From Actinophytocola gossypii (GTDB lineage: Bacteria; Actinomycetota; Actinomycetes; Mycobacteriales; Pseudonocardiaceae), in assembly GCF_025165815.1 (NCBI RefSeq), contig NZ_JAFFZE010000009.1:1-64000 (forward strand): a stretch of 64,000 nt of DNA, given 5' to 3'. Shown here one piece after another: positions 22,963 to 39,295 of the stretch. The notes under the pieces are model-generated. The model worked only from the letters and a program-made list of their open reading frames with translations, was not told where the DNA came from and did not search any database. Both the position numbers and the translations under genes were made by a program. Position 1 is the first letter of the stretch. Every line of letters begins with the position of its first letter.

Positions 22963-24066
22963 TCACCTCGTGTCCGGAGCGCACAACACCAGCGCGGCAT
23001 TGATCCCGCTGAAGGCCACGCTGTTGGACACCGCGACCCGCGGTCCGGTCGCCGTGCTCGTGCGGCCGGCCAGTCGGGGTGCGTTGGGCAGGGGGGTGAC
23101 CAGGTTCGGGTTCGGGTGCACGAAGCCGTCGCGTAGTTGGACGATCGTGGCGATCAGCTCGGTGAGTCCGGCCGCGCCGAGGCCGTGTCCGACCAGGCCC
23201 TTGGTGGAGTTGACCAGCGGGCCGGTGCCGAAGACGTCGACAAGTGCGGTCGCCTCCGCGGCGTCCCCGGCGACCGAGCCGGTACCGTGAGCGTTCACGT
23301 AGTCCACAGCGGACGGACGGATGCCGGCGTCGGCCAGTGCGCGGCGCATCGCCTCGGCCTGGCCGGAAGGGTCCGGCGCGGTGCCACGCCTGCCGTCCAG
23401 CCGCTGGCCGTACCCGCTCAGCCAGGCCAGCGCCTGTCCCCGACGCCGCAGCACCACCGACGCGGCCGCCTGGACGTAGCAGAAGCCGTCGCGGGCCTCG
23501 TCGAACGGCCGGCAGACGCCCTCGGTCATGGCACCGCTGGACAGCAGCGCCCGCCGTTCCGCACCGGACAGCTCGTTCGCCGGCGCCACCACCACGCAGG
23601 TGTCCACCTCGCCGGACCGGATCAGGCGTGCGCCGGCGATCACCGCGAGCGTTCCGCTGGCCGACGCGCCGCCCACCGTGCACCCCTCACCGCGGATCCC
23701 GGTCGCCTCACTGACCACGCCGAGCACGTCCGTGTCCAGGTAGGCCATCGCGTGCGACGGTCGGACGCTGCCCGGGCGCTCGTTGAACCGTTGCCAGACT
23801 CCGGCGTGGTAGTCGAGGGCGAGGTTGTTGCCGGCGACCACCAGCGCGGCCGACTCCAGCTCCGCCGCGGTGAGCCCCGCGGCGCGCATCGCCGCTACGG
23901 CCACGGCCGCACCGCTGCGTGCCGGCAGCGCGGATCGTCCCGGCGCGGTGACGGTGAACCCCGGATCCGCCACGACACCGGCGGCGAGCGCGTCGGCGAA
24001 CGCCGGCACGGTGTCGGCCAGCGCGTTGCGCACGGCCATGCCGGTGACCGCGACCGGTGTGCTCAC
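22963..24066 (-). CDS. Decarboxylating ketosynthase (active-site Cys to Ser) of an HCS cassette (367 aa)
   Basis: The protein has a ketosynthase fold, but the active-site motif (T)ACSSG is ASASG, with Ser135 in place of the nucleophilic cysteine. The two histidines are kept (NAHGTGS and KGLVGHGLGAAG). In polyketide beta-branching cassettes a free-standing KS with this exchange decarboxylates malonyl-ACP to acetyl-ACP for the HMG-CoA-synthase homologue. The GTG start overlaps the stop of the upstream KS (GTGA). It is the last gene of the nine-gene operon. The role is assigned from family knowledge plus context. Confidence 0.82.
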   Translation of the reverse strand: MSTPVAVTGMAVRNALADTVPAFADALAAGVVADPGFTVTAPGRSALPARSGAAVAVAAMRAAGLTAAELESAALVVAGNNLALDYHAGVWQRFNERPGSVRPSHAMAYLDTDVLGVVSEATGIRGEGCTVGGASASGTLAVIAGARLIRSGEVDTCVVVAPANELSGAERRALLSSGAMTEGVCRPFDEARDGFCYVQAAASVVLRRRGQALAWLSGYGQRLDGRRGTAPDPSGQAEAMRRALADAGIRPSAVDYVNAHGTGSVAGDAAEATALVDVFGTGPLVNSTKGLVGHGLGAAGLTELIATIVQLRDGFVHPNPNLVTPLPNAPRLAGRTSTATGPRVAVSNSVAFSGINAALVLCAPDTR

Positions 24067-25751
24067 CCCGCCCGCCGGCGCGCGGTCTCCGGCGCGAATC
24101 CCAGGTGCGTCCGCCGGAAGACCGTGCCCGGCAGCGACAGCCGCACCGCTGGCGGCGTGATCCAACAGGCCGCCCAGTCGAGCTCGCCGCCGTTCACCCA
24201 CGTCCGGTAGGCCGGCCCCGGCTCCGGCAGGGCCCGCAGCCCGGTACGCAGCTCCGCCAGCGAGCTCGCCTCGACGACCGCCCGTGCCGGCAGCTGCTCC
24301 CGCCCTGCCTGCATGGTCCACGCCACCGAGTTGAGGTCGCAGCCCGGTGGCGGATCGGCCAGGAAGTCCGCCAGCTCAGCGGCGCGCGCACCCAGCGAGG
24401 CCTCGTCGGCCGCGGACAGCGGCACGGCGACCCGCCCGGCTCGCCACCGCCCGGCCGAGGCCCGCCGGGCCGGAGACTCCTCCACCACCAAGTGCCCGTT
24501 GGACCCGCCGATACCGAACGAGCTCACCCCGACCCGCCTCGGGGCACTGCCGGCCGGCCAGTCGATGACGCTGCCCGGCGGGGCGGACGGGTCGTGTCGC
24601 ACGGCGAGGTCGGCTCCCACCGAGAGAATGCCGGCGGCGGTGGGGATCTGGCCGTGCCGCAGTACCAGCACAGCCTTGACGAGACTCGCGACAGCGGCGG
24701 CGCTCTCCAGATGCCCGATGACAGCCTTGACGGACCCGACCCACGTTCTCCCGTCCGGTCCCGCCCTGCCTCGTGCCCCGGGCGGGAGCGTGGCTAGCAG
24801 TCTGCGGATACCGTCCACCTCGACCGCGTCGGCACTGGTGCCCGGTGCGTGCGCCTCGACGTAACCGATGTCCGAAGCAGACAGACCGGCCTGCCGGAGC
24901 GCGCGCTGGACCAGCCCCACCTGGGAGTCGGCGTCCGGTCTGATCAGCCCCCCACGCCGACCGTCGTGATTGGTGGCCGCGCCGCGGATCACCGCGGCGA
25001 CCGGGTCCCCGTCGGCAAGCGCGTCATCGAGCCGTTTCAGCACCAGGCTCACCACGCCCTCCCCCCGGACATAGCCGTCGGCGCCGTCGGTGAACGGCCG
25101 ACACGACCCGGACGGCGACAGCGCACCGGCGTGCGCCAGCGTGGCCGGCATGACCCCGGACAGGCACAGGTTGGCGGAGCCGACCAGGGCGACGTCGAGA
25201 TCCCCTGCGCGCAGGCTGGCGACCGCCATGGTCAATGCGGAGAGTCCGCTGGAGCAGCCGGTGTCCACCGTGTAGCTGGGGCCGCGGAAGTCGTAGTGGT
25301 AGGAGAGCCGGTTGGACAGGTAGGTCGGCAGCGCTCCGATGGCCGTGTAGCGGTCGAGCACCCCTTCGCTGATCATCCGGTCGCGAAAGTCGTTGGTGGC
25401 GGACCCCACGAAGACACCCACGTCGAGGCCACGCAAGCTGCCCGGTGCGATCGCCGCGGACTCCATGGCCCGCCAGCTGGTCTCCAGCAGCAGGCGCTGC
25501 TGCGGATCCATCCACACCGCCATGCGCCGGCCGATGCCGAAGAACTTCGCGTCGAAGCAGCTGATGTCGTCGAGCAGGGCTGCGGTCAGGCCGGCCGGCC
25601 CGACCTGCCCGGCCGGGTAACCCACGAGGCGATCCGCCGGCACCTGCCGGGTCTTCGGCGCGCCCACGGTCAGCGTCCGCCAGAACTCGTCGGCCGTGTC
25701 GCTGCCGGGTAGCCGAAAGTCCATACCCACGATGGCGACAGGAGTGCTCAT
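24063..25751 (-). CDS. Stand-alone ketosynthase with C-terminal linker, trans-AT-PKS-like (562 aa)
   Basis: A full catalytic ketosynthase: Cys in VDTGCSSGL, the first histidine in EAHAPGTSADAVE and the second in KAVIGHLESAAA. About 120 residues follow the KS core (from around VPLSAADEASL) and resemble the linker after KS domains of modular PKSs, truncated before any other domain. This enzyme should make the beta-ketoacyl-ACP that the HCS cassette then branches. No acyltransferase is fused or adjacent, so malonyl units must come from a trans-acting or fatty-acid-synthase transacylase. The ATG start overlaps the stop of the ECH2 gene. Confidence 0.88.
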   Translation of the reverse strand: MSTPVAIVGMDFRLPGSDTADEFWRTLTVGAPKTRQVPADRLVGYPAGQVGPAGLTAALLDDISCFDAKFFGIGRRMAVWMDPQQRLLLETSWRAMESAAIAPGSLRGLDVGVFVGSATNDFRDRMISEGVLDRYTAIGALPTYLSNRLSYHYDFRGPSYTVDTGCSSGLSALTMAVASLRAGDLDVALVGSANLCLSGVMPATLAHAGALSPSGSCRPFTDGADGYVRGEGVVSLVLKRLDDALADGDPVAAVIRGAATNHDGRRGGLIRPDADSQVGLVQRALRQAGLSASDIGYVEAHAPGTSADAVEVDGIRRLLATLPPGARGRAGPDGRTWVGSVKAVIGHLESAAAVASLVKAVLVLRHGQIPTAAGILSVGADLAVRHDPSAPPGSVIDWPAGSAPRRVGVSSFGIGGSNGHLVVEESPARRASAGRWRAGRVAVPLSAADEASLGARAAELADFLADPPPGCDLNSVAWTMQAGREQLPARAVVEASSLAELRTGLRALPEPGPAYRTWVNGGELDWAACWITPPAVRLSLPGTVFRRTHLGFAPETARRRAG

Positions 25752-26515
25752 GGCCTCAGCTCCTCGGCTCGCCCGTAGCGATCACCGACCAGTGCGAGCC
25801 GGTCGGCCGCGGCCCACGAACGCTCGTGCGGGCCGGTCTCCACTTCGATGGCCGCGTCACCAGCGGCCAGCACCTGACCGGCGAGCTGCGCCTTCATCAG
25901 CTCCAGGGCACGACGGGGCGCCCGGGCGATTCGCTCCGCCTCGGCCAGTGCCACCGCGACCACGTCGTCGTGCGGGACGATCCGTACCGGCGCGCCTCGG
26001 TCGCGCAGCTCCGCGCCGCGGTACGCCCGCGCCGTCAACAGGAGCTCGGTGCCCAGGGTGGAGCCCAGCCGGGCAGGCAGCAGCCAGGTCGTGCCGTAGG
26101 CCGGTGCCAGGCCGAAGTTGAGAAAGTTCGCCGCGTACATCGAACGCTCGCTGAGGATCGGGATGTCGGCGTACAAACCCTGGGACAGCCCACCGCCGAC
26201 GGCGTGCCCGCGCATGGCCGCCACCACCGGCAGCGGACAGTGCACGAACGCCCGGACGAACGGCTCGACGTCGACCGGGTCCGCCGCGGCCAGGTACTCG
26301 CGGCTGGCGCCGCAGGAGAACCTGTCCGGCAACCCGGTGACCACCACCGCGTGCACCGTCGGGTCGGTCGCGACCACGGCCAGCACGTCTTCCAGCCCGG
26401 CGCTCAGTGCCGGGGAGATGGTGTTGCCACTCGCCTCGTCCGCCATGGTCACCAGTGCGACCCGCCCGGTCCGCAGCAGCCGAACCGGACCGAACGCTCG
26501 CGTCGCGGTCGTCAT
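25748..26515 (-). CDS. Enoyl-CoA hydratase family, ECH2-type decarboxylase (PksI/CurF-like, 255 aa)
   Basis: A crotonase-fold enzyme with the oxyanion-hole glycine motif GHAVGGGLSQGLYAD and the ECH2-specific stretch NFLNFGLAPAYGTTWLLPARLG, which closely follows the pattern of PksI-type proteins. In beta-branching cassettes ECH2 decarboxylates 3-methylglutaconyl-ACP to a beta-methyl enoyl-ACP. ATG 26515 overlaps the stop of the ECH1 gene by four bases, and its own stop overlaps the KS start. Residue-level evidence favours ECH2 over ECH1. Confidence 0.87.
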   Translation of the reverse strand: MTTATRAFGPVRLLRTGRVALVTMADEASGNTISPALSAGLEDVLAVVATDPTVHAVVVTGLPDRFSCGASREYLAAADPVDVEPFVRAFVHCPLPVVAAMRGHAVGGGLSQGLYADIPILSERSMYAANFLNFGLAPAYGTTWLLPARLGSTLGTELLLTARAYRGAELRDRGAPVRIVPHDDVVAVALAEAERIARAPRRALELMKAQLAGQVLAAGDAAIEVETGPHERSWAAADRLALVGDRYGRAEELRP

Positions 26516-27201
26516 GCTCGTATCCCCCGCAACGACTCGATTCGGTCGAGCACTACGTCGTCCTCGACGGCGGCGCGCAGCAGCCCGTAGCTCTGGTCGA
26601 GGTACCCCGCCGGCACGTGCGTCAACGCCCGGCGGCACGCCTTCAGGTCGGCCACCGAGTTCCTCGGCATCCGCCGCAGGGCGCGCGCCAGCCCGCCGAC
26701 CGACTCGTCGGGGTCCGCGCGGACCTCGTCGGCCAGCCCGAGCCGGTGCGCCCCGGCCGCGTCCAGGCTGGTGGCCAGCAGCGCCGACCGGAACATGGCG
26801 TGGTGACCGATCCGTGCGGCGACGAACGGCCAGATCAGCGCCGGGACCAGGCCGACGAGCACCTCGGTCAGCCGGAAGCTGGCACCCGCGCCGGCGACGA
26901 CCAGGTCACAGGCGGCCGCCAGGCCGACCCCGCCGCCGTACGCCGCGCCGTCCACCACCGCCACGGTGACCAGGCGGCTGTCCCGCAGCGCCGACAGCAA
27001 CTCCCACAGCCGCGCGTGATCCCGCGGCGTCCAGTCGGTCACCGCGTCCAGCGCCGCCCCGGAACAGAACACCGGCCGGTCCGCGCGCAGCACCAGCGCG
27101 CGGCTCGACGACCGCTCCGCCGCGCGCACCTCGGCGAGCAGAGCGGCCACCGTTCGGGACGACAGGTCGACCGGCGCGACGGTCCGCGCGATCACAGCCA
27201 T
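26512..27201 (-). CDS. Enoyl-CoA hydratase family, ECH1-type dehydratase (PksH/CurE-like, 229 aa)
   Basis: A crotonase-fold protein with FCSGAALDAV, GGGVGLAAACDLVVAG and FRLTEVLVGLVPALIWPF, the signature layout of ECH1 enzymes such as PksH. It should dehydrate HMG-ACP to 3-methylglutaconyl-ACP. At 229 residues it is slightly short but complete. The start at 27201 overlaps the HCS gene by ten bases. It is followed by ECH2, giving the usual HCS-ECH1-ECH2 order of known cassettes. Confidence 0.87.
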   Translation of the reverse strand: MAVIARTVAPVDLSSRTVAALLAEVRAAERSSSRALVLRADRPVFCSGAALDAVTDWTPRDHARLWELLSALRDSRLVTVAVVDGAAYGGGVGLAAACDLVVAGAGASFRLTEVLVGLVPALIWPFVAARIGHHAMFRSALLATSLDAAGAHRLGLADEVRADPDESVGGLARALRRMPRNSVADLKACRRALTHVPAGYLDQSYGLLRAAVEDDVVLDRIESLRGIRA

Positions 27202-28352
27202 GCGTACTCCCGCTGGTAGCCGGAGATCCCGGTGAGCACCGCACGGCCCGGCCACTCGGTGCGCACCTCGACCGGCACGTCCCGCGCACCCTGCCCGAGC
27301 AACCGCGTCCGGTCGAGGAACCGGTCGTACTCGGGCACGGACAGCCGTGTCCTGGCCGACAGGTCCGGCAGCACGGCCGTGGCGCCCGCCGGCACGACGC
27401 AGCGGATGAACTCCGCCGCGCTGCCCGAGCCGTAGCTGAACACGCCCAGCACCTGGTCCCGTGTCGAGGGACGGTGCCCGATCGCACTCAGCATCGCCAG
27501 CAGGGTGGTGGCGGAGTAGATGTTCCCCGCCGTCGCCGGCAACCGGGTCGACGGCTCGACCCTTGCCCGGTAGTCCTCGGCGATCGCGTCCGGCCGCAGG
27601 TCCGACAGCTTGCGCAGCAACGTGCGGTGCGCACCCCGAACCATGCCGGGAAACGGCGTGTGCATCGCCAGCATGTCGAAACCGGTCACGATGTCCGTGC
27701 CGGGCACCCGGTCGCAGTGGTCGGCGAAGGCGCCGAGTAGACTGTCCAGGTAGGACACCAGGGACAGATCGGTATCGACCACCTCGACGTCCGGTCCTGG
27801 CCGGAGGAAGTCGGCCAGCTCGTAGCCGTAGCAACCGGAGTCACCCAGCGACAGCTCGACGACGCCTGGCTGGTCGCCGACCAGCACGGCCACCGCACCG
27901 CAGCCCTGGCCCGCCTCGATGTACTCGCCACGGGTCACCGCAGGCACGTCGGCGGCGACCACCAGCGCCTTGCTGCCTGGCTCGACCGACACCAACCCGG
28001 CGGCGGCCTGCAACGCGGCGATCCCGCCGTAGCAGGCCTGCTTCACCTCGAACAGCCGGCACTGCCGGGGGAGGCCGAGCAACTGGTGTACGTGGGTGCT
28101 GACCGACTTGGACATGTCCACGCCCGACTCCGTGGCCACCACCAGAGTTCGGATGTCGTCGCGGGCCAGGGGCCGGGCGGCGGTGGCCGCGAGCGACACC
28201 ACGTCCTCGTCCGGAAGCACCACGCCCTTGCCGACCAGTCCGAGACCGGCCAGCCGGGTGTGATCCAGCCCGCGAGCGGTGAACAACTCCTCGGCGGGCA
28301 ACCACGCCGAGCCGCAGTAGGCGTTGACGGCCTCGATTCCGATCCTGGCCAT
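27192..28352 (-). CDS. HMG-CoA synthase-like beta-branching enzyme (HCS, 386 aa)
   Basis: A thiolase-fold enzyme with the complete HMG-CoA synthase triad: Glu75 in ATESGVD, Cys107 in KQACYGG and His231 in AMHTPFPG. In secondary metabolism these proteins (PksG, CurD and relatives) add an acetyl group from a donor ACP to the beta-keto group of an acceptor ACP-bound chain. I use ATG 28352; a GTG at 28358 would give the 4-nt overlap seen at most other junctions here. Placement between two ACP genes and ECH1 fits a polyketide HCS rather than mevalonate metabolism. Confidence 0.9.
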   Translation of the reverse strand: MARIGIEAVNAYCGSAWLPAEELFTARGLDHTRLAGLGLVGKGVVLPDEDVVSLAATAARPLARDDIRTLVVATESGVDMSKSVSTHVHQLLGLPRQCRLFEVKQACYGGIAALQAAAGLVSVEPGSKALVVAADVPAVTRGEYIEAGQGCGAVAVLVGDQPGVVELSLGDSGCYGYELADFLRPGPDVEVVDTDLSLVSYLDSLLGAFADHCDRVPGTDIVTGFDMLAMHTPFPGMVRGAHRTLLRKLSDLRPDAIAEDYRARVEPSTRLPATAGNIYSATTLLAMLSAIGHRPSTRDQVLGVFSYGSGSAAEFIRCVVPAGATAVLPDLSARTRLSVPEYDRFLDRTRLLGQGARDVPVEVRTEWPGRAVLTGISGYQREYAWL

Positions 28353-28354
28353 GG

Positions 28355-28615
28355 TCACCACGCCCGGGTCGCCGTGGCCAGGACCTCGGCCAGCTCCGCG
28401 AGGGTGTGCGCGCCGTCGAGAACGTCGACGCTCGGCGACAGTCCGGCGTCGTCCAGCGAGCCGACCAGGACATCCAGTCGTTCCAGCGAGGACAGGCCCA
28501 GGTCGGCCAGCGTGCTCTCGGCGACCACCTGGTCCGGCGGGACGGCGTCGGGGACACCGTCGAGCACGGCCAGCACGTTCGCGCGGAGCAGCTCCAGGGC
28601 TTCCTCCGCGGTCAC
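28355..28615 (-). CDS. Acyl carrier protein, probable donor ACP (86 aa)
   Basis: A free-standing carrier protein with a four-helix pattern and the phosphopantetheine serine in LGLSSLERL (Ser43), where the usual Asp before the serine is Ser. It lies next to HCS, as the donor ACP does in known beta-branching cassettes, so it probably carries the acetyl unit made by the decarboxylating KS. It overlaps the second ACP gene by four bases. Confidence 0.85.
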   Translation of the reverse strand: MTAEEALELLRANVLAVLDGVPDAVPPDQVVAESTLADLGLSSLERLDVLVGSLDDAGLSPSVDVLDGAHTLAELAEVLATATRAW

Positions 28616-28842
28616 GACGACGCCCCGAGGCGGTCGAGGAGAGCACGTGGGGTGCCGAGGTCGTAGAGCTCGGCGATGGTGGCCGTGTATCCCACCGACG
28701 CCTTCAACTGTGCCACGTACTCCACGGCGAGGATGGAGTCCAGCCCGAGCTCGGGAAAGTTGCTGTCCAGGTCGACGCGTTCGGGCTCGACGTAGAGCAC
28801 CTCCGCGAGCAACCGGATCGCCTCGGTACCACGGCTGGTCAT
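28612..28842 (-). CDS. Acyl carrier protein, probable acceptor ACP (76 aa)
   Basis: A second free-standing carrier with a canonical LGLDSILAVEYV motif (Ser36). Six residues after the serine it has Tyr42, the place where beta-branching acceptor ACPs usually carry a flag Trp (DSxxxxEW). This suggests the growing chain sits here and is presented to HCS. Starts and ends overlap the neighbouring genes by four bases. Confidence 0.85.
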   Translation of the reverse strand: MTSRGTEAIRLLAEVLYVEPERVDLDSNFPELGLDSILAVEYVAQLKASVGYTATIAELYDLGTPRALLDRLGASS

Positions 28843-29867
28843 TCTGACTCTCCTCCCTGGACGTTTTCGCGCCAGCGGACGGCGGCCGCGGCGGTCAACT
28901 CACCGGCGCCAGCGAAGCCGCCGAACACGACCAGTGAGCCGTCGGGCACCAGGCCGGCCCGTACCGCGTGGTCGAAGGTGATCGGCATACCGGCGCCGAA
29001 GAGATTTCCGTAGCTGTCGAACGTGTCCGGATGCCGGGCCGGGTCCACGCCGAGCTCTCTGGACCAGTTCCGCAGCAGCAACCGGTTGGGCTGGTTGGTC
29101 ACCAGCACGTCGATGTCCTTCGTGGCAAGGCTGAGCCGGTCGCACACCGCTCGGATCACGTCCGGCACCAGGACGGTGCCGCGTTCGATGATGTTCTGCG
29201 CCTTGCGGTTGTCGAAGTGGACGTCCAGTTCGGCGGTGCCTGGTTCCCAGTACAGCCGGCCGTCGGCCAGGACGATGTCGACGTCCGCCGCGTACTCGGG
29301 ATGGTGACGCACTTCGGTGTCCAGGATCGTGGCGCCACCTGTCGCCCCGACCAGCGCCACTGCCGCGCCGTCGCCGATCACCGAGGCGTGTGCCGACGTG
29401 CGGACGCCGGGCTGGGTGAAGATCCGCCCGGAGTTCTGGGTCAGGCACAGCAGCGCGCGGCCCGTGCTGGCGCCGGACAGCAGGTTCCTCGCCAGGCTGA
29501 GCATGTAGGGGAACACCGCGCAGTGCCCGTTGTGCAGATCGATGATCGACTCCGGTCGGAGGCCGAGCCGACGCGCGATCTCCGCGCCAGCACCCAGGAA
29601 CGGCACGTCCGGCAGCGCGGTGTGGGTGATGAGGACTTCGACGTCGTCGAGCACGGTCGGTCCGTGCCGCGCGGTCAGCGCTCCCACGGCCAGCTCGATG
29701 AGATCGGGCGCGGTCTGCGTGCGGTCGGCGTAGCGCCGCGAACGCGGCGCGCGGAACATGGGGTTGCGCACCAGCGGGTCGTCCGGCCGGGCGTACCGCT
29801 CGAAGTACTCGCGGCCGACCTCGGTGGGCGGAAGATAGCTCGCGACGTCGATCAGCCCTGCCGTCAT
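28839..29867 (-). CDS. KASIII-like (FabH fold) protein with His to Asn exchange (342 aa)
   Basis: A thiolase-fold protein of the FabH-like group with the active cysteine (Cys116 in NGHCAVFPYML). Where FabH has HQAN, this sequence has TNQPN, so the catalytic histidine is Asn258; an asparagine remains at 288 (DSYGNLFGAG). Loss of the histidine with a retained cysteine points away from decarboxylative condensation and towards acyl transfer, starter loading or an unusual ligation. The gene follows the ThDP enzyme with an ATGA overlap and precedes the ACPs. The activity is inference. Confidence 0.78.
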   Translation of the reverse strand: MTAGLIDVASYLPPTEVGREYFERYARPDDPLVRNPMFRAPRSRRYADRTQTAPDLIELAVGALTARHGPTVLDDVEVLITHTALPDVPFLGAGAEIARRLGLRPESIIDLHNGHCAVFPYMLSLARNLLSGASTGRALLCLTQNSGRIFTQPGVRTSAHASVIGDGAAVALVGATGGATILDTEVRHHPEYAADVDIVLADGRLYWEPGTAELDVHFDNRKAQNIIERGTVLVPDVIRAVCDRLSLATKDIDVLVTNQPNRLLLRNWSRELGVDPARHPDTFDSYGNLFGAGMPITFDHAVRAGLVPDGSLVVFGGFAGAGELTAAAAVRWRENVQGGESE

Positions 29868-31588
29868 GATGCCTCCCGTACCGCTTCGTGCCGCAGAAAA
29901 GGCAGAAACGGCGGAATCTCGTCGGTGTCCAGCTCGACGCACACCAGTGTCGGCCCGCCACGACTCTCGGCATCGAGCAGGAAGTCCCGGCACGCGTCGA
30001 GACCGGTGCGTGCCCGGACCGTGTGCACGGCGAGGGAGGGGAACATGGCGTCGACGCCGGCACCGATACTGGTCGGGGTGAACCGGTTGTGGCTCGGCAC
30101 GCCGGGGTAGTAGAGATCCTCGCGGGTCACGCACATGGCGTGCGCGTTGTTGTTGAACACCACGAAGGTGACCGGCAGGTGGTATTCCACCGCGGTGTGC
30201 ACCTCCATGCCGTGCATGAAGAACGAACCGTCGCCGGCCAGCACGTAGGTGCGCTTGCCGGTGGCGAACGCCGCGCCGAGGCCGGCCCCGAAACTGAATC
30301 CCATGCCGCCCATGCCCATGGCCAGTACCTGACGACCCCGTCGAGGGGTTGGCAGGAAGTGCACGACGGCCGCGCCGGCGTTGCCGGCGTCGCTGACCAC
30401 GTTGGCATCAACGGGCAGCACGGCCGAAATGACCTCCAGGACTTCCCGGCAGCCGAGTTGGTCACCGCTCCGTTCGGGCAGCGGCAGATGGTCGACCTCG
30501 GCCCGTTGGCGTTCGGTCGTCCCACGCGCGACCTCGCTCGGGGCGGCGGTGTCGCGTCCGCCGAGCATCGTGGTGGTCGCCAGCAGGTTCGCCCGCAGGT
30601 CCCCGTCGACCAGCAGGGCGCGCTCGTCGTGCACGTAGGGAGGCTGGTCGTGAAAGGCGACCAGCTCGCGGGTGGCGAGCAGATCCTCCAGGCCGAGCCG
30701 CGACCCGTGCGGGAGCCGCGTGCCGGCCAGCACGCACGAGGTCGCGGCGAGCAGCGCCCGCCGTACCGAAGGATGCCCCATGGTTCCGGCGACCCCGAGG
30801 AACCGGTGGCTGTGATTGTCGAAGGCGTCCTTCGCGTCGGCCTCGACGGCCACTCCGGCGTCCAGCGCCTCGGCGAGCGCGGCCAGCTCGGCACGCGCGT
30901 TCGCCCGGATCACACCGGATCCCGCGATGATCACCACCCGGCCGGTGCGCAACCGCCAGCGCAGCGTGCCGGAAACCCCGGCCGTGCGGCTCGTCACCGC
31001 CGGTTCGTCCCAGTCGGGTGTGGACAGCGTAGCCTGCTGGATGTCCTTGGGCAGCAACAGGACCGCTGGCCCGGCCGGTGAGCCGACGGCAGCCGCCAGC
31101 GCCGCGGGCAGCAGGTGGGCCACGTCCTCGGGCTTGCCCACCCGCTCACAGAACCGGGACACCGGGGAGAACACCGCGCGGCAGTCGATCGACCCGGACA
31201 CTCCACTCTGGTCCTGGAAGGCACCGCGGCCCTCCAGCGCGGTGGGGGGCTGCCCGACCAGGGCGAGCACCGGAACCTCCGACGCGTACGCCTCGCCGAG
31301 GGCGGCCACCAGGTTCAGCGCGCCGCCGCCGGACGTGGCCGTCACGACCGCGATCCGGTTGCCGGTGCGGTGATATCCGTCGGCCATCGTGCCAGCGGCG
31401 AACTCGTGTTTGGCAATCACCGCGGAAATGGGAAGGCCGGACCCGCTCGCCGCGTCGTAGAGATCCTCGATATTCGCTCCGTGCACGCCGAACATGTGCC
31501 GAACACCGGCGGCCCGGACGAGATAACTCACCATGTGGTCGACCGTTCGCAGCGGCGCGCGGCGCGTCCGCGAAGTATTGAGATCCAT
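29864..31588 (-). CDS. Thiamine-diphosphate-dependent enzyme, acetolactate-synthase-like (574 aa)
   Basis: All three domains of the family are visible: the N-terminal PYR domain with the activating glutamate in AKHEFAAGTMADGYHR, a central domain, and the C-terminal PP domain with the ThDP motif beginning GDGSFF and ending in NNNAHAM. Such enzymes decarboxylate 2-keto acids and transfer the resulting two-carbon unit. It is the first gene of the operon. It could supply an unusual starter or carry out a C-C bond forming release with an ACP-bound acyl group. It is unlikely to be the housekeeping enzyme, given the company it keeps. Confidence 0.86.
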   Translation of the reverse strand: MDLNTSRTRRAPLRTVDHMVSYLVRAAGVRHMFGVHGANIEDLYDAASGSGLPISAVIAKHEFAAGTMADGYHRTGNRIAVVTATSGGGALNLVAALGEAYASEVPVLALVGQPPTALEGRGAFQDQSGVSGSIDCRAVFSPVSRFCERVGKPEDVAHLLPAALAAAVGSPAGPAVLLLPKDIQQATLSTPDWDEPAVTSRTAGVSGTLRWRLRTGRVVIIAGSGVIRANARAELAALAEALDAGVAVEADAKDAFDNHSHRFLGVAGTMGHPSVRRALLAATSCVLAGTRLPHGSRLGLEDLLATRELVAFHDQPPYVHDERALLVDGDLRANLLATTTMLGGRDTAAPSEVARGTTERQRAEVDHLPLPERSGDQLGCREVLEVISAVLPVDANVVSDAGNAGAAVVHFLPTPRRGRQVLAMGMGGMGFSFGAGLGAAFATGKRTYVLAGDGSFFMHGMEVHTAVEYHLPVTFVVFNNNAHAMCVTREDLYYPGVPSHNRFTPTSIGAGVDAMFPSLAVHTVRARTGLDACRDFLLDAESRGGPTLVCVELDTDEIPPFLPFLRHEAVREAS

Positions 31589-31760
31589 GGCCCACCCAGT
31601 CCGTCTCGACGCGGTGACCGACCAACGCCCTGTGGCGTACTACTCGTACGATAAGAGGCGCGGATCGGAACCCGCTCGAGGGCTCGTCGACCTCACTGCC
31701 GATATCCCGCCCGACACCCCGATGATTCATGGGTGTTCGGGAGATCTGAGTGGAGGCGGC

Positions 31761-33038
31761 ATGAGTGATCCAGAAGCCGATGTGACCGTGAGCCGATGCC
31801 CGGTGAGCGGAATTGCCGGGAACTTCGACCCGTTCGGGGCCGAGTACCAGACCGATCCGCCTGGAATGCTCCGAGCCGCGCGCCACCACCAACCCGTGTT
31901 TTACAGCGAGGATCTCGACTACTGGGTCGTGACGCGCTATCGCGACATCAAGGCGACGTTTCGGGACAGCAGCAGGTTCTCCGCGTCGATCGCGCTCGAT
32001 CCCATCACGCCGCTACGTCAGCCGGTGGTCGAGCTGCTGAGAAGCTACCGGTTCGCACCAGGCCCAGTGCTGACCAACGAGGACGACCCCGTGCACCGGG
32101 CGCGACGCAAGGCGCTGGCGGAACCGTTGCTGTCCCGGTCCGTCGCGAAGCTGGAGAACCGGATTCGCGCGCTGGTGTCCGACTACCTCGACGACATCGT
32201 GCCCCGCGGCGCCGCGGACCTGGTCGACGATCTGCTCTGGGACGTGCCGGCGATCGTCGGCCTGCTGGTGGTCGGAGTGCCGGACGAGGACATCGACCGG
32301 GCGCGCAACTACAGCATCAAGCTCGGCATGTTCACCTGGGGGCGGCCAACGCTCGAGCACCAGTTGGAGATCGCCGACCAGGTCGGCCAGTGGTGGACGC
32401 TGGCCGGCGAGCTGGTGGAGCGGCTCAAACGCACCGGTGGGACGGGCTGGGTGCCGCACGCCATCGACGTCCAGCGCACCCGCCCGGAACTGGTCACCGA
32501 CAACCATCTGCAGAACATGCTGATGAGCGGTCTGGTGGCGGCGCACGAGACGACCACCAACGCGGCCGGCAACGCGCTGCGCTACCTGCTCGAACATCGG
32601 GAGGCCTGGGCCGAGCTGTGCGGTGACTCGACGCTGATTCCGAACGCCGTGGAGGAGTGCCTACGGTTCTCCTCGTCCGTGCAGTGCTGGCGGCGTAGGG
32701 CACTGGTGGACGTGCCGGTCGGCGGCACGGTGATTCCGGCGGGCGGCAAGGTGCTGCTGATGATCGGCTCCGGAAACCACGACGACGACGTGTTTCCCCA
32801 GCCGGACACGCTGGACATCCGACGCGCCAACGCCACCGAGCACCTGGCCTTCGGTGCCGGCAACCACGTGTGCATGGGAGCGCCGCTGGCCCGGCTGGAG
32901 TTGCGAATCATCCTGGAGGAGCTGACCAGGCGGCTGCCGGGGATGCGCCTGGTACCGGGGCAGAACTACGACTACCGCCGCAACGCGTCGTTCCACGGAC
33001 CGCAGCACCTGCTGGTCGAGTGGGACACCCCGTCCTGA
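31761..33038 (+). CDS. Cytochrome P450 (425 aa)
   Basis: A soluble bacterial P450 with the heme-binding loop FGAGNHVCMG (Cys371), the I-helix motif LVAAHETTTN and the ExxR in EECLR. TGGAGG lies just before the ATG at 31761; the longer upstream frame has no supporting features. It is divergent from the ThDP operon, so a shared 172-bp promoter region is likely and suggests it oxidises the operon's product. A ferredoxin gene is not adjacent. Confidence 0.9.
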   Translation: MSDPEADVTVSRCPVSGIAGNFDPFGAEYQTDPPGMLRAARHHQPVFYSEDLDYWVVTRYRDIKATFRDSSRFSASIALDPITPLRQPVVELLRSYRFAPGPVLTNEDDPVHRARRKALAEPLLSRSVAKLENRIRALVSDYLDDIVPRGAADLVDDLLWDVPAIVGLLVVGVPDEDIDRARNYSIKLGMFTWGRPTLEHQLEIADQVGQWWTLAGELVERLKRTGGTGWVPHAIDVQRTRPELVTDNHLQNMLMSGLVAAHETTTNAAGNALRYLLEHREAWAELCGDSTLIPNAVEECLRFSSSVQCWRRRALVDVPVGGTVIPAGGKVLLMIGSGNHDDDVFPQPDTLDIRRANATEHLAFGAGNHVCMGAPLARLELRIILEELTRRLPGMRLVPGQNYDYRRNASFHGPQHLLVEWDTPS

Positions 33039-33057
33039 TCGGTGTCGGCCGCCGGTC

Positions 33058-34272
<1,215 letters not shown>

Positions 34273-34456
34273 GCGACCTCACTCCTAGGTCCCGCCCGTG
34301 GCCCGTCCTCGCCGGCGAGAGTCGCCATCAGGATGCCGTGCAGTCGGTCGAGCCCCGCTCGACGCCGCGGCCCGACGTGCCCCGTTTCAACGCGCTCTCG
34401 AGCGCCGTGAGACACGATCGACGCCTGAACAGCACATGACACCGCGAGGAGAAACC

Positions 34457-34966
34457 GTGACCGGTCGAGAGAACCTGATCCACGTGCCAGCCGACGACGG
34501 TGACGGGGTGTGGATCGGCGGCACCCTGCACACGGTCAAGGCGGGGACCGCCACCACGTCGGGGTCGCTCAGCTTCCTCCAGCTGACCGTTTCCCCCGGC
34601 GACGGTCCACCACCGCACATCCACACCGGCGAGGACGAGACGCTGTACATCCTGTCCGGGGAGTTCGAGTTCTTCTCAGCTGGCCGCACCTTCGCCGCCA
34701 CGGCCGGAGACCTCGTCCATGTGCCCCGCGGCACCCTGCACGGCGTGCGCAACGTCGGTGAGTCAACGGCTCGTGCGTTGACCATCTACACGCCCGGCGG
34801 TATGGACCGCTACTTCACCGCAGTGGGGACGCCGGAAGGACTTCCGGGGGCCGGCCCCGCCCCGCTGTCGCCGGAGCAGCTGCGCGCGGCGGTGGAGCAG
34901 GCGCCGGCCCACGGGCTGATCATCCCGCCGCCGCCGGACGGAGGACCTCCGCCACCGCCGCGCTGA
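34457..34966 (+). CDS. Cupin domain protein (169 aa)
   Basis: A single cupin barrel with the two conserved motifs: PHIHTGEDETLYILSGE (metal-binding His/His/Glu) and the later VPRGTLHGVRN with the fourth ligand. GAGGAG precedes the GTG at 34457; an ATG at 34436 is also in frame. The C-terminus is proline rich. Small cupins of this sort serve as quercetinase-like dioxygenases, isomerases or cyclases in natural-product pathways. It converges with the SRPBCC gene with a 2-bp gap. Exact role unknown. Confidence 0.82.
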   Translation: MTGRENLIHVPADDGDGVWIGGTLHTVKAGTATTSGSLSFLQLTVSPGDGPPPHIHTGEDETLYILSGEFEFFSAGRTFAATAGDLVHVPRGTLHGVRNVGESTARALTIYTPGGMDRYFTAVGTPEGLPGAGPAPLSPEQLRAAVEQAPAHGLIIPPPPDGGPPPPPR

Positions 34967-34968
34967 GG

Positions 34969-35619
34969 TCAGCCACGTGCCTGCCGCTGGCTGTCGACGA
35001 TCGAAATGCCGTTGGCGTGCCGGTACTCCAGGATCGCCTTGAGGTTGTCCAGCTCGATCTTGTGGCCGGGGTAGAACAGGTGCCAGAAGTCCCCGACCCA
35101 GAGACGGTCCTTGCTGGGTGCCAGCTCGGGGCGCGGGTTGACGTCGTAGTGCGGGTGGTGACAGTTGGTCCACAGCAGCACCGAGCCCTGCGTACCGAGC
35201 ACCGTCCGCGCCGGCACCACCCGGTACAGGTACACCATCCACAGCTCGTCGCCCTGGTCCCACGCGCAGTGGTAGTCGACGGTGAGCGCGTCCCGGTTGG
35301 CCACCACCTTGGCGTACAGCCGAGTGTCCGGGACGATGCGATCCCAGCCGACCCACAGCCCGTCGTCGTCGACCGGCTCCAGTTCCCTGGCGCTGACCGT
35401 GAACTCCTCCAGGCTGCGGATGTCCGCCAGGTAGTCGAACACGACTTGCGGCGGGCAGTCGATGTAGGCGTGCAGCGTGCAGAAGTCGTGGTAGATTTCT
35501 TTGCTGGAGTAGCTTTCCTTGGCTTCGCGTTCAGCGATCCGGAAGACTTCCGGCGCCGGCGTGTTCTCCACTCTGACAATCCCTGGAATTTCGGCCAGTT
35601 CCGCTTCGGAAACCCGCAT
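34969..35619 (-). CDS. SRPBCC/START-like protein (216 aa)
   Basis: The sequence has an aromatase/cyclase-like helix-grip pattern (LHAYIDCPPQVVFDYLADIRSLEEF, then WVGWDRIVPDTRLYAKVV, and later DFWHLFYPGHKIELDNLKAILE). Such proteins bind hydrophobic or polyketide ligands in a deep cavity. ATG 35619 has GAGAGGA upstream and is preferred over more distant starts. It could bind, cyclise or release the product of the HCS operon, but the link rests on position only. Confidence 0.72.
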   Translation of the reverse strand: MRVSEAELAEIPGIVRVENTPAPEVFRIAEREAKESYSSKEIYHDFCTLHAYIDCPPQVVFDYLADIRSLEEFTVSARELEPVDDDGLWVGWDRIVPDTRLYAKVVANRDALTVDYHCAWDQGDELWMVYLYRVVPARTVLGTQGSVLLWTNCHHPHYDVNPRPELAPSKDRLWVGDFWHLFYPGHKIELDNLKAILEYRHANGISIVDSQRQARG

Positions 35620-35732
35620 CTCGCTATTCCTCTCCGCTTTCGTTGCCTCACGATGCGGTCCGGGCCTCGAAGAGCGAGCCACGATCGGTGGACGATCGGC
35701 GGTCGCGCGGGTTGGGCAGCACACTGGCGGAC

Positions 35733-36545
35733 ATGCCGGGAACCGTGGGCTCGTTCGGTGCGTGGGTGGCGGCCAGCCATCCGTTGCCCGGGTTGGTGGT
35801 GACGGTGGTGGCCGCCGGGCTCGCGGTGACGGCGGGGCATTCGCCGGGCGGCGTCGCCGGGGTGACCGTGGCCGTGTTCGCCGGGCAGTTGTCCGTGGGG
35901 TGGCTCAACGACGTCGTCGACGCCGACCGGGACGCCGTGGTGGGGCGGACGGACAAGCCGGTGGCGGCGGGGCGGGTCGGCCGCCGCGCGGTCGGGCGGG
36001 GAGTGGTGGTCGCCGCGGTGCTGGCGGTGGGGCTGTCCCTGCTGTCCGGCGTGCCAGCGACCGCGGCGCACGTGGGCGCGTTGCTGTCGGCCTGGGCGTA
36101 CGACCTGGGGGTCAAGGCGACGGCCTGGTCGATCGTCCCCTACGCGGTGTCGTTCGGGCTGTTGCCGGCGTTCGCGACCATCGGGGCCACCGGGCACTGG
36201 CCGCCGTGGTGGATCACGGTCGGGGCCGCGGTGCTCGGCAGTGCCGCGCACGTCGCGAACGTCCTGCCGGACATCGACGACGACACCGCGACCGGGGTCG
36301 TGGGACTGCCGCACCGGATCGGCGCCACGGCCAGCCGGTTCCTCGCGGCCGCGCTGGTGCTGGCCGCGTCCGTGGTGCTGGTGGCCGGACCGCCCGGGGC
36401 GGCCTCCGCGCTCGGGATCGCCGCCCTGGTCGTCGCCTGTCTGGTCGTCGGCGGGGGACTGGTGGCGCGGCGGCGGGCCGCGTTCCACGCGGTACTAGTC
36501 GTCGCGGTCCTCGACGTGGTGCTGCTGCTCGCCACGGGCGCGTGA
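35733..36545 (+). CDS. UbiA-type prenyltransferase (270 aa)
   Basis: A polytopic membrane protein with about seven to eight transmembrane segments and the first aspartate-rich motif NDVVDADRDAVVGRTDKP, which binds the prenyl diphosphate through magnesium. A second acidic motif (LPDIDDDTATGV) follows, as expected. ATG 35733 gives the normal family start. The gene is near a type III PKS, methyltransferase and acyl-CoA dehydrogenase, a combination known from actinobacterial prenylated resorcinol/quinone pathways. Its last 51 bp overlap the 3' end of the SDR gene on the other strand. Confidence 0.85.
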   Translation: MPGTVGSFGAWVAASHPLPGLVVTVVAAGLAVTAGHSPGGVAGVTVAVFAGQLSVGWLNDVVDADRDAVVGRTDKPVAAGRVGRRAVGRGVVVAAVLAVGLSLLSGVPATAAHVGALLSAWAYDLGVKATAWSIVPYAVSFGLLPAFATIGATGHWPPWWITVGAAVLGSAAHVANVLPDIDDDTATGVVGLPHRIGATASRFLAAALVLAASVVLVAGPPGAASALGIAALVVACLVVGGGLVARRRAAFHAVLVVAVLDVVLLLATGA

Positions 36546-37370
36546 GACCAGCTCGGACTGGTAGCGCCGGGTCCAGCGGGCCACCAGGGGTGCCACCGGC
36601 GCGAGCGCGAGGTCGAGGACGACGCTGAACGGCGGTACCGCGGCCAGCCGCGCGGGTCCGAGCCAGCGCGGCACGGCGACGGTCCGGTGGCCGTGCCCGG
36701 TCAGGCACCGGTACACCTCGTCGGCGACCTGGTCCGGGCCCGCGCCGAACGAACGGCCGCGCCTGCCCTCCTCGGCGGTCGGACGCAGGCCGCCGGCGCG
36801 CAGCAGCCACTCGGTACGCACCGGGCCCGGCTCGACGGTGTGGATCCGGACTCCGTGCGGCACCTCCCGCCGCAGGCCGTGCACGAGCCCGTCGACCGCC
36901 GCCTTGGTGGCCGAGTACATCGCCAGCGGCGGCACCGGCACCACCCCGGCGAGCGAGGAGATCATCACCACGTCGCCGCGCCGGTCCGCGAGGTGGGGGA
37001 GGGCCCGCCGGGTCAGGTCCGCGACCGCGACCACGTTCAGGTCGACCATGGCCTGTACGGCCTCGGTGTCCAGCTGGGTGAACAGCCCGACCCGGCCCTG
37101 GCCGGCGTTGTTGACCAGCGCGTCGAGCCTGCCGTACCGCTCGACCACGTGGTCGACCAGCTCGCCGCGCTGCCGGGGATCGGTGAGGTCGCACGGCACG
37201 GCGTGGACGCCGGCCGCGCGCAACCGGGTCTCGTCCCTGGCGCACGTGACGACCGTCGCGCCCTCGGCCAGCAGCCTCGTGACGACGGCGGCTCCGATCC
37301 CGGCGGTGCCGCCGGTCACCAGGACCACCCGGTCGCGGACGGTTCGTTTCGTGAACATGCCGGTGGGCAT
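36495..37370 (-). CDS. Short-chain dehydrogenase/reductase (291 aa)
   Basis: A classical SDR with TGGTAGIG cofactor loop, NNAGQGRVG, and the catalytic Ser-Tyr-Lys set in MISSLAG and YSATKAA. A C-terminal extension (LAAVPPFSVVLDLALAPVAPLVARW) looks hydrophobic and may tether it to the membrane. ATG 37370 or 37358 can both serve as start; neither has a strong ribosome binding site. It lies on the opposite strand within the type III PKS locus. Substrate unknown. Confidence 0.85.
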   Translation of the reverse strand: MPTGMFTKRTVRDRVVLVTGGTAGIGAAVVTRLLAEGATVVTCARDETRLRAAGVHAVPCDLTDPRQRGELVDHVVERYGRLDALVNNAGQGRVGLFTQLDTEAVQAMVDLNVVAVADLTRRALPHLADRRGDVVMISSLAGVVPVPPLAMYSATKAAVDGLVHGLRREVPHGVRIHTVEPGPVRTEWLLRAGGLRPTAEEGRRGRSFGAGPDQVADEVYRCLTGHGHRTVAVPRWLGPARLAAVPPFSVVLDLALAPVAPLVARWTRRYQSELVSRARGEQQHHVEDRDD

Positions 37371-37415
37371 ACCCGCCGGGCGCGTACTCACCCCACTTTC
37401 GGGTACACGCCGCGC

Positions 37416-38138
37416 GTGCCAACGACCCGGTTCCGGCCCAACGACGTCGCGCTCTACGACGCGAACGTCGAGCAGTGGTGGCGGCGGAGGGGCGTGTTCG
37501 CGATGCTGCACTGGCTCGCCGCGGCCCGCGCCGAGCTGGTCCCGCCCGCCCCGCGACCGGGCGCGGTGCTGCTCGACCTGGGCTGTGGCGCCGGGCTGCT
37601 CGCGCCGCACGTCGCCGACAAGGGCTACCGGCACGTCGGCGTCGACCTCTCGCCCGAGACGGTCCGGCTGGCCGGCGCGCACGGCGTGCACGCGGTCCGC
37701 GGCGACGTGCTGTCGATCCCGGCGGCCGACGAGTCGGCGGACGTGGTGGTCGCCGGCGAGATCCTGGAGCACGTGCCGGACCTGCCGCGTGCCGTCGCGG
37801 AGGCGTGCCGGGTGCTGCGGCCCGGCGGGTCGCTGGTGCTGGACACGCTCGCCGCCACCGCGGTCTGCCGGTGGCTGGCGATCGGCGTCGCCGAACGGGT
37901 GCCCGGCCTGGCCCCGCGCGGCGTGCACGACCCGGCGCTGCTGGTGGACCGGTCGCTGCTCGTGCGGGAGTGCGGGCGGCACGGTGTGGGGTTGGCTCTG
38001 CGGGGTATCCGCCCGTCGGCGACCGGGCTGATCGCCTGGCTCCTCCGCCGGGCGGACACGGTCGCGATGGTGCCGACCCGGTCGACCGCCGTGCTGTTCC
38101 AGGGGTACGGCACCAAGACCGGCACGAGGGAAGGATGA
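37416..38138 (+). CDS. SAM-dependent methyltransferase, UbiG-like (240 aa)
   Basis: A class I methyltransferase with motif I in LLDLGCGAGLLAPHVADKG, followed by VGVDLSPETV and the post-I acidic residue, and EILEHVPDLPRAVAEACRVLRPGG. The layout (DANVEQWWRRRGVFAMLHWL at the N-terminus) matches the UbiG/Coq3-like group that O-methylates phenols and hydroquinones. The GTG start lies 45 bp from the divergent SDR start. The end overlaps the next gene by ATGA. It probably methylates the phenolic product of the type III PKS. Confidence 0.87.
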   Translation: MPTTRFRPNDVALYDANVEQWWRRRGVFAMLHWLAAARAELVPPAPRPGAVLLDLGCGAGLLAPHVADKGYRHVGVDLSPETVRLAGAHGVHAVRGDVLSIPAADESADVVVAGEILEHVPDLPRAVAEACRVLRPGGSLVLDTLAATAVCRWLAIGVAERVPGLAPRGVHDPALLVDRSLLVRECGRHGVGLALRGIRPSATGLIAWLLRRADTVAMVPTRSTAVLFQGYGTKTGTREG

Positions 38139-39295
38139 CGGTGTCCGCGATCCCCCGAGCCCGGTCGGTGGCCGAGCGCATGTCCGCACGGGCCCAGGCC
38201 TACGACGCGTCCGGCGAGTTCCCCTCGGCCGACTTCGACGACCTGCGCGACGCCGGGCTCCTCGGCCTGATGGTGCCCCGCCGGCTCGGCGGGCTCGGGG
38301 CGTCCTTCGCCGAGTACGCCGACGTCGCGGTCGAACTGGGCGCCGGAGCAGGGGCGACCGCGCTGATCTTCAACATGCACGCGTCGGTGACCGGGGCGCT
38401 GGCGCACACCCCGGACGACCTGGTGCGCGCGTTCGGCGCGCCGGACAGCTTCTTCGAGTCCCGCGACCGGGTGCTGCGGGCCGCCGCCGACGGCTCGCTG
38501 TACGCGGTCGCGATGAGCGAGCGCGGCGTCGGCTCGCGGCTGTCCAAGGTCGCCACCGCCTACGAGCGCACCGCCGCCGGCTTCCGGATCACCGGCAGCA
38601 AGACGTTCGTCTCCGGCGCCGGGCACGCCGACGCCTACCTGGTCGCCGCCAGGGACCACACCGCCGACGAGCCGCGCGTCTCCTACTTCCTGGTCCCGGC
38701 GGGCGACGGCGTGCGGGTCGAGCCGACCTGGGACGCGCTCGGCATGCGCGCCACCGGCAGCCACGACCTGCACCTGGACACCGAGGTCGGCCGGGACGCG
38801 CTGGTCGGCGGGATCGAGGGCGCCGCGCTGCTGCTCGCCCAGGTCATGCCGCAGTGGCTGGTCGCCTCCTACGCGGCGGTCTATGTCGGTGTCGCCCGCG
38901 CCGTGCTCGACCACGGGGCGAAGCACCTGCGCGAGCGCGGCCTGCACACCCTGCCCGCGGTACGCGCCAGGATGGGCCGGGCCGACACCCGGGTCGCGGC
39001 CGCGGCGCTGGTCGTCGCCGAGGCGGCACGGCGGGTCGCCGAGGACCCGGGCGGCCAGGAGACCAACCGCTGGGTGTGGCGGGCCAAGCTGGCCGCGGGC
39101 GACACCGCGGCGGAGGTCGCCTCGAGCGTGCTGGAGGCGGCGGGCGCCTCGGCCACCCGTCGAGGCCATCCGCTGGAACGGCTCTACCGCGACGCCCGCT
39201 GCGGTGCCCTGCAACCGGCCACCTCCGACGTGTGCGCGGACTGGCTGGGTGCCCGCGCGGTCGGCGACGACCCGGACGAGGCACCCCGGTGGTGA
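38135..39295 (+). CDS. Acyl-CoA dehydrogenase family protein (386 aa)
   Basis: A full-length flavin-dependent acyl-CoA dehydrogenase fold: N-terminal helices (FDDLRDAGLLGLMVPRRLGG), the FAD contact region AMSERGVGSRLSK, GSKTFVSGAGHADAYLVAA in the beta domain, and a C-terminal helical domain. It starts in the stop codon of the methyltransferase (ATGA) and overlaps the type III PKS start (GTGA), so the three are one translation unit. It could desaturate an acyl-CoA starter or hydroxylate an aromatic ring, as some members of this fold do. Confidence 0.87.
   Translation: MTVSAIPRARSVAERMSARAQAYDASGEFPSADFDDLRDAGLLGLMVPRRLGGLGASFAEYADVAVELGAGAGATALIFNMHASVTGALAHTPDDLVRAFGAPDSFFESRDRVLRAAADGSLYAVAMSERGVGSRLSKVATAYERTAAGFRITGSKTFVSGAGHADAYLVAARDHTADEPRVSYFLVPAGDGVRVEPTWDALGMRATGSHDLHLDTEVGRDALVGGIEGAALLLAQVMPQWLVASYAAVYVGVARAVLDHGAKHLRERGLHTLPAVRARMGRADTRVAAAALVVAEAARRVAEDPGGQETNRWVWRAKLAAGDTAAEVASSVLEAAGASATRRGHPLERLYRDARCGALQPATSDVCADWLGARAVGDDPDEAPRW

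Follow-up and report, generated by a model that had tools for sequence, protein, structure and literature searches.

A beta-branching gene cassette in Actinophytocola gossypii, probably part of a cluster for a carbazole-type alkaloid

The window, that is the whole stretch of DNA analysed here, spans 64 kb from the start of contig C41 (604,686 bases) in the 7.38-Mb, 99%-complete genome of Actinophytocola gossypii. Between positions 22963 and 31588 its reverse strand carries an operon of nine genes that encodes a cassette for beta-branching, built around a homologue of 3-hydroxy-3-methylglutaryl-coenzyme A (HMG-CoA) synthase (HCS). An earlier note, made from the letters of the window, had named these nine genes and their families, and comparison with Pfam and NCBIfam bears it out on both counts. 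Its remark that the genes overlap at nearly every junction also holds, as seven of the eight junctions are overlaps of 4 or 10 nt, the remaining one, between the genes for the second acyl carrier protein (ACP2) and HCS, being a 2-nt gap. The genes, with the roles predicted for their products, are as follows.

29864..31588, - strand: thiamine diphosphate (ThDP)-dependent carboligase, putative CqsB3/NzsH-like role (aromatic 2-oxo acid plus pyruvate); Pfam TPP_enzyme N, M and C domains, Glu and GDGxF...NN motifs
28839..29867, - strand: beta-ketoacyl-ACP synthase III (KASIII)-like condensing enzyme, putative CqsB1/NzsJ-like role; ACP_syn_III_C; Cys and Asn present, usual His replaced by Asn
28612..28842, - strand: acceptor ACP (ACP1); PF00550 at 4.8e-15, GLDSILAVEY motif
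28355..28615, - strand: donor ACP (ACP2); PF00550, weak PRK07117 match
27192..28352, - strand: HCS, HMG-CoA-synthase-like beta-branching enzyme; TIGR01835 match, Glu, Cys and His
26512..27201, - strand: ECH1, dehydrating enoyl-CoA hydratase homologue; PF00378, best NCBIfam model PRK07112
25748..26515, - strand: ECH2, decarboxylating enoyl-CoA hydratase homologue; PF00378, PRK07110 above cut-off
24063..25751, - strand: catalytic ketosynthase (KS), the single chain-extending KS; PF00109/PF02801 plus post-KS linker, Cys-His-His
22963..24066, - strand: decarboxylating ketosynthase (KS0); PRK07103, Ser at the Cys position

ECH2 is the sole cassette protein to pass an NCBIfam cut-off (247 bits, cut-off 215); KS0 (PRK07103, 363 bits), HCS (TIGR01835, 208 bits), ECH1 (PRK07112, 114 bits) and ACP2 (PRK07117, 25 bits) fall under the cut-offs of their best models, which are 445, 360, 250 and 79 bits. 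The PRK models matched are those of the PksF/I/H/AcpK set of Bacillus. The nearest chains in the PDB are 8s81, CurD and PksG for HCS and BbmA/CsmA for the ThDP enzyme; none of the papers listed for BbmA/CsmA was relevant. Active-site positions in HCS, the KS, the ACPs and the ThDP enzyme were taken as those usual for these families. On that footing the Glu-Cys-His of HCS is intact, as the earlier note had it, the catalytic KS keeps its Cys-His-His and the other ketosynthase, KS0, has Ser for Cys; the ACP serines and the ThDP glutamate are also present in the window proteins. HCS is single-copy, with no other found in the whole genome.

In the standard cassette, as described in PMC12560621, KS0 converts the malonyl group on a donor ACP to acetyl, HCS adds the acetyl group to the beta-ketoacyl group of an acceptor ACP, and ECH1 dehydrates the product before ECH2 decarboxylates it; a tryptophan in the acceptor ACP, the Trp flag, is given there as a common recognition motif. 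The window holds the same components (donor ACP, KS0, HCS, ECH1, ECH2 and acceptor ACP) as the HCS cassettes of the modular polyketide synthases (PKSs) exemplified by bongkrekic acid (Bon), PksX, curacin and mupirocin (PMC12560621), and the catalytic residues are likewise present. Unlike those cassettes, it has one stand-alone KS and a stand-alone acceptor ACP that lacks the Trp flag, and no modular PKS is adjacent. The beta-branching set, with its one KS and one acceptor ACP, is complete and fit to make a small beta-methylated acyl chain, as the earlier note had proposed.

The nine-gene limit set by that note stands for the operon, but it left out four genes at 31761-35619 that bear on what the chain would be used for.

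31761..33038, + strand: cytochrome P450 (P450a); PF00067, nearest solved chains are P450 RhF-like haem domains
33058..34272, - strand: cytochrome P450 (P450b); PF00067
34436..34966, + strand: cupin protein; PF07883, quercetinase-like chains
34969..35619, - strand: SRPBCC carbazole synthase homologue (CqsB2-like); PDB 6ipv, CqsB2, E 7.9e-45

Third-position guanine-plus-cytosine (GC) content is alike across the region, being 0.78-0.89 for open reading frames (ORFs) as called in 22963-35724 and at least 0.9 for most well-called flanking ORFs; because of this likeness the two P450 genes, the cupin gene and the SRPBCC gene probably lie in the same island as the operon. The SRPBCC protein matched no Pfam family at E 0.001. 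In the PDB its match to CqsB2 is followed at a great distance by Cake6 (1.3e-5), and Tyr144, Tyr172, His206 and Glu209 of CqsB2 are kept both in the window protein and in the loci compared.

According to PMC7466098, in the known route an aminotransferase makes indole-3-pyruvate, CqsB3/NzsH (ThDP) adds pyruvate, CqsB1/NzsJ (KASIII-like) condenses the resulting product with 3-hydroxybutyryl-ACP, and CqsB2/NzsI closes the ring. Clustering of ThDP and KASIII-like genes with an SRPBCC gene is a feature of the bacterial carbazole pathway, and it is present here. Relatives of the SRPBCC protein occur in 40 of 397 genomes of the order (one of them, G014, with only a 37-residue stretch), and neighbourhoods were counted for 30 loci of the 46 matches. 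A ThDP homologue adjoins the SRPBCC gene in 29 of these 30, the exception being the window, and the ThDP, SRPBCC and KASIII genes occur together in 28; here the exceptions are the window, with its SRPBCC gene set at a distance, and L088, where the covered piece shows ThDP only.

The trio and the HCS cassette also occur together elsewhere. From 338 HCS relatives in the genome collection the best 79 loci were examined, with genes called by a simple GC-frame script whose starts are approximate, and with loci that coincide (L116 with G144, L143 with G163) counted once. Seven of the 79 carry both trio and cassette, namely those of Saccharopolyspora indica, S. oryzae, Actinomadura sp. DC4, Sphaerisporangium rufum, Streptomyces longwoodensis, Amycolatopsis arida and a Pseudonocardia metagenome-assembled genome (MAG); with the window and genome G239 this makes nine distinct loci. 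The earlier note had suggested seeking the nine-gene set in other genomes, and it does recur. In all but the window the gene order is ThDP-SRPBCC-KASIII-ACP1-ACP2-HCS-ECH1-ECH2-KS-KS0, so that the SRPBCC gene sits between the ThDP and KASIII genes, and the same eight loci have an aminotransferase gene before the ThDP gene. An ACP2 counterpart is found in all nine, and the Glu-Cys-His of HCS is intact in 9/9; KS0 of L182 has Pro at the active position. In the window cassette, a KS0 without the active Cys, the donor ACP and ECH1 are all present. A HemN-like radical S-adenosylmethionine (SAM) protein and a flavin adenine dinucleotide (FAD) oxidase are each encoded in seven of the nine. In a FastTree phylogeny of concatenated ThDP, SRPBCC and KASIII sequences (30 rows, rooted on the Cqs-type locus L232) the nine trios form one clade (0.998), and HCS is absent from all 14 of the other SRPBCC stretches of 18-20 kb. 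The comparisons thus show the gene content, the presence of the catalytic residues and the conservation of the set as a unit.

Because the ThDP enzyme, the KASIII-like enzyme and the SRPBCC protein match the carbazole-forming trio (PMC7466098), the branched acyl-ACP is most likely a carbazole building block. Judged by these comparisons, 22963-35619 is probably a cluster for a carbazole-type alkaloid whose acyl block comes from a free-standing, dissociated beta-branching system. The earlier note had expected the acyl chain itself as the end product, perhaps released by the ThDP or KASIII-like enzyme. That the chain is the end product and that the ThDP enzyme releases it are both improbable, since the trio, including an SRPBCC protein encoded outside the interval of that note, matches the carbazole-forming set, and the ThDP enzyme matches the carboligase of that trio; acyl release by the ThDP enzyme was dropped once the SRPBCC protein had matched CqsB2.

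We infer the reactions, the indole substrate, the chain length, the form of the side chain and the product as follows. The KS, acting with ACP1, would lengthen a short starter group, either acetyl or one drawn from fatty acid synthesis, by a single round of malonate addition to give beta-ketoacyl-ACP1; because the cluster holds no acyltransferase (AT) or reductase, FabD and a ready-made starter are assumed. KS0 would decarboxylate malonyl-ACP2 to acetyl-ACP2, HCS would add the acetyl group to the beta-keto group, and dehydration by ECH1 and decarboxylation by ECH2 would yield 3-methyl-2-enoyl-ACP1 (or the 3-enoyl isomer), which would replace the 3-hydroxybutyryl-ACP of the known route. The KASIII-like enzyme would then move the branched acyl group from ACP1 onto the beta-keto acid derived from indole-pyruvate, with loss of CO2, and the SRPBCC protein would close and aromatise the ring. 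The carbazole so formed would bear a 2-methylalk-1-enyl side chain, because the acyl carbonyl becomes a ring carbon, to judge from the structure of carquinostatin. The P450s and the cupin would tailor the carbazole.

The aminotransferase gene before the ThDP gene in the other eight loci fits the expected supply of a 2-oxo acid. On a plasmid of Nocardia sp. NBC_01327 (L242:1700-15717) the trio is split around a small gene set, and a HisC-like aminotransferase, an integrase and trpB are encoded there, TrpB scoring 528 bits (cut-off 392). This combination points to tryptophan and is the best independent sign of an indole substrate, though it comes from one locus. A histidinol-phosphate-transaminase-like enzyme for the step from tryptophan to indole-3-pyruvate in a carbazole cluster is named in PMC10100901.

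A number of points weigh against this assignment, and several of them concern the trio itself. The window SRPBCC protein is only 40% identical to CqsB2 and, as in every compared locus except L232, has Asp for Glu105; its gene lies 3.4 kb from the ThDP gene. The window ThDP and KASIII-like enzymes are 35% and 28% identical to those of L232, whose SRPBCC protein shares 70% identity with CqsB2. The His found in L232 and FabH is replaced by Asn in the KASIII-like enzyme of 9/9 loci with HCS and of the 11 HCS-free trios of the same type that were compared, so that the chemistry of this enzyme may differ from the usual. According to PMC7466098, CqsB1 and CqsB2 took beta-hydroxyacyl substrates only; the same source expects non-hydroxy donors in other carbazole pathways. 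As for the substrate, trpB was found in only one trio locus among the stretches searched (a 28% match to a pyridoxal-phosphate enzyme in L235 was not counted). The aminotransferase of the related loci is most like valine-pyruvate transaminase, and for that reason tryptophan is no more than a putative substrate. The genes for this aminotransferase, the radical-SAM protein and the FAD oxidase are absent from the window cluster; the first two were sought in the window genome, with only 27-32% matches, and the FAD oxidase was not sought there.

Other such points concern the cassette and the comparisons. At the position usual for the Trp flag, ACP1 has Tyr in the window, and the other eight loci have Tyr (six), Phe (one) and Leu (one). 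ECH1 was not found in L114 within the 21 kb covered. In the trio tree, L109 and L199 stand for a single locus, which leaves 19 distinct HCS-free trios, and nine of the HCS-free rows are based on 3.6-kb pieces, their genomes having given no HCS match. One KS lies near each of the nine loci, but 44 of 72 other, trio-free HCS loci (4-21 kb covered) also have 0 or 1; the KS count near HCS was dropped as a poor control, and whole genomes were searched instead. The pathway as proposed would work like an HCS cassette joined to a carbazole pathway, yet without one usual feature of each, the Trp flag and the KASIII His.

The earlier note had described the cassette as being without any PKS, and for the neighbourhood this is correct. 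The next strong KS matches are 435 kb away on the 605-kb contig, which also has two partial KS matches of 22-23 bits at 294 and 438 kb; to the left of the operon only 23 kb remain before the contig ends. Across the genome PF00109 matches at 46 places, and modular PKSs are present, for example on contig C49. The note had counted against itself any modular PKS elsewhere in the genome without its own HCS cassette, and C49 is literally such a case, but it is of the cis-AT type: the Cys motif was read in nine of its ten KS matches, always with an AT motif after it, and the tenth (at 458 kb) showed neither. The ACP motifs found on C49 belong to the DSL..VELRN type, none with Trp at the flag position, and the flag is also missing from all nine ACP motifs that turned up when 30 of the 46 KS places were read as 3-4-kb pieces. 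Service in trans to a PKS elsewhere is unlikely, because C49 is cis-AT and the ACP motifs found lack the Trp flag. The presence of modular PKSs in a genome with no second HCS would speak for it; still, cassette and trio stay together in nine loci, and it is hardly credible that the cassette acts for C49 or another modular PKS of this genome. In the whole-genome search (matches at 1e-10) the Pseudonocardia MAG gave four KS matches in all, Sphaerisporangium nine and the others 12 to 58. Among the matches listed, 289 kb separate the operon of G239, a single contig, from its nearest other KS, and in G144 the distance is 59 kb on the same contig. No modular PKS stands beside the cassette in the covered DNA of the nine loci, and several of these genomes have modular PKSs elsewhere.

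Two other readings accept the operon as it stands and differ over its product. The same enzymatic logic may act on another partner (phenylpyruvate, 4-hydroxyphenylpyruvate or an aliphatic 2-oxo acid) and give a product other than a carbazole. The low identity of the ThDP and KASIII-like enzymes to those of L232, the replacements at the KASIII His and at Glu105, a weak match of the SRPBCC protein to the ScyC model (29 bits, cut-off 400) and the valine-pyruvate-like aminotransferase of the relatives all argue for it. Nevertheless, we consider it rather unlikely, as CqsB2 is the sole credible PDB match with four of five key residues kept, TrpB and a HisC-like aminotransferase stand beside one trio of this type, and an O-methyltransferase and a P450 are encoded with another. 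More improbable still is a self-contained route to a small beta-methyl (isoprenoid-like) acyl chain that the KASIII-like or ThDP enzyme would set free as an acid, a ketone or an alcohol, the SRPBCC protein being unrelated. The operon alone is indeed complete for beta-branching, and L117 and L143 combine an HCS cassette and a single KS in the absence of the trio; yet the SRPBCC gene lies between the ThDP and KASIII genes in the other eight loci, and the trio forms one clade where HCS is present.

Within the proposed carbazole cluster the remaining genes are unevenly conserved. P450a has a homologue in 9/9 loci, with 65-71% identity in seven of the other eight and 46% in L182, P450b has no best match in any of the other eight, and the cupin occurs in six of the nine. 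P450s of the RhF kind are self-sufficient, but P450a, with its RhF-like haem domain, ends without a reductase part. To the right, at 35733-39295, Pfam names a UbiA-like prenyltransferase, a short-chain dehydrogenase/reductase and a methyltransferase, which are probably outside the cluster; an acyl-CoA-dehydrogenase-like ORF in the same interval was named by eye, and the frame given to Pfam gave no match.

The HCS sequences were also placed in a tree of 36 rows, in which 25 HCS rows are split (99/97) from the HCSs of the nine trio loci, the window included, together with two mevalonate-type synthases that both pass the TIGR01835 cut-off. If the root is placed on the mevalonate branch, these nine HCSs would branch first, which we offer as a lead only, the outgroup branch being long (2.43) and of two rows. 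The tree needs two changes for the nine and is compatible with a single origin as well as with more than one. HCS cassettes without the trio occur in Micromonospora sp. CB01531 (G163; L065:16134-20000 and L066:1-5618) and Catellatospora coxensis (L117:2749-11566), where one KS, a free-standing acyltransferase and P450s are encoded alongside. These loci make up a second type of HCS cassette for which the DNA covered shows no modular PKS. In G346 (L067:15064-20000, L068:1-5729) there are homologues of KS, ECH2, ECH1, HCS, ACP, KS0 and P450, with no further KS match in 40 kb, and its HCS is close in the tree to that of Saccharothrix algeriensis (L168).

Further observations concern the trio and its relatives. 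In G239 an IS605 OrfB/TnpB-like gene (L062:1761-3032, - strand) lies within the operon between ECH2 and KS, and the same genome has a second, lone SRPBCC gene (L200:9947-10591, - strand; 46% to CqsB2) with no ThDP or KASIII gene in the 20 kb covered. Of the 40 genomes with SRPBCC relatives, 36 fall in one family (f8), taken to be Mycobacteriaceae-like from plasmid matches to Nocardia, Rhodococcus and Tsukamurella and from mce-type genes. In two loci of this family, L195:290-10894 (- strand) and L196:7920-18494 (+ strand), ThDP, SRPBCC and KASIII genes are followed by genes for an ACP, an adenosine monophosphate (AMP) ligase, an MMPL transporter, an O-methyltransferase, a methyltransferase and a P450 (identified by Pfam on L196 and by similar ORFs for L195), with mce-type genes adjoining. 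The arrangement suggests a carbazole-type pathway, so far undescribed, in which an acyl-AMP ligase would provide the acyl group and the product would be exported.

The window cluster resembles the carquinostatin/neocarazostatin pathway (CqsB1-B3, NzsJ/I/H) in its ThDP carboligase, KASIII-like enzyme, SRPBCC carbazole synthase and free-standing ACP. The donor there is 3-hydroxybutyryl-ACP made by a KASIII (NzsF) and FabG (PMC7466098), whereas in the window the KS and the HCS cassette would supply the acyl donor. The window further differs in the Asn for His of its KASIII-like enzyme and in that no phytoene-synthase-like prenyltransferase was found among the window genes scanned. The ScyA/ScyC pathway of scytonemin shares the logic of a ThDP enzyme and a cyclase acting on indole-3-pyruvate; unlike it, the window has an SRPBCC protein with only the weak ScyC match given above, and we know of no acyl-ACP step in that pathway. 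Carbazomadurin A carries a 2,5-dimethylhex-1-enyl side chain, and the epocarbazolins carry epoxidised forms. For a side chain of this kind the donor would be 3,6-dimethylhept-2-enoyl, and a methyl-branched alkenyl or epoxidised chain is what a beta-branched acyl donor would give. No gene cluster for carbazomadurins or epocarbazolins was found in the literature searched. Carbazomadurins come from Actinomadura madurae (PMC10951976); PMC7466098 lists them and the epocarbazolins as 3-oxygenated among the ‘mono-oxygenated’ carbazoles, a group whose A-ring machinery, it states, remains to be identified.

A literature search that reached few subscription journals found no paper linking carbazoles to HCS or to beta-branching, and none linking HCS cassettes to ThDP or KASIII enzymes. 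To our knowledge no HCS cassette has before been assigned to a pathway that lacks a modular PKS, and the system is most likely a new variant of carbazole biosynthesis in which the acyl arm comes from an HCS cassette. It is possible, and we put it forward tentatively, that the dissociated line of one KS, one acceptor ACP and an HCS cassette is the missing route to beta-methyl carbazoles of the carbazomadurin/epocarbazolin type, and moreover that its HCS belongs to a lineage that branched off early and was the source of the cassettes now serving modular PKSs. If true, HCS beta-branching would run fully dissociated, outside modular PKSs; carbazoles bearing a beta-methyl side chain would become accessible to genetic work, and a set of small stand-alone enzymes would be at hand with which to test how an HCS recognises its acceptor ACP when that ACP has no Trp flag.

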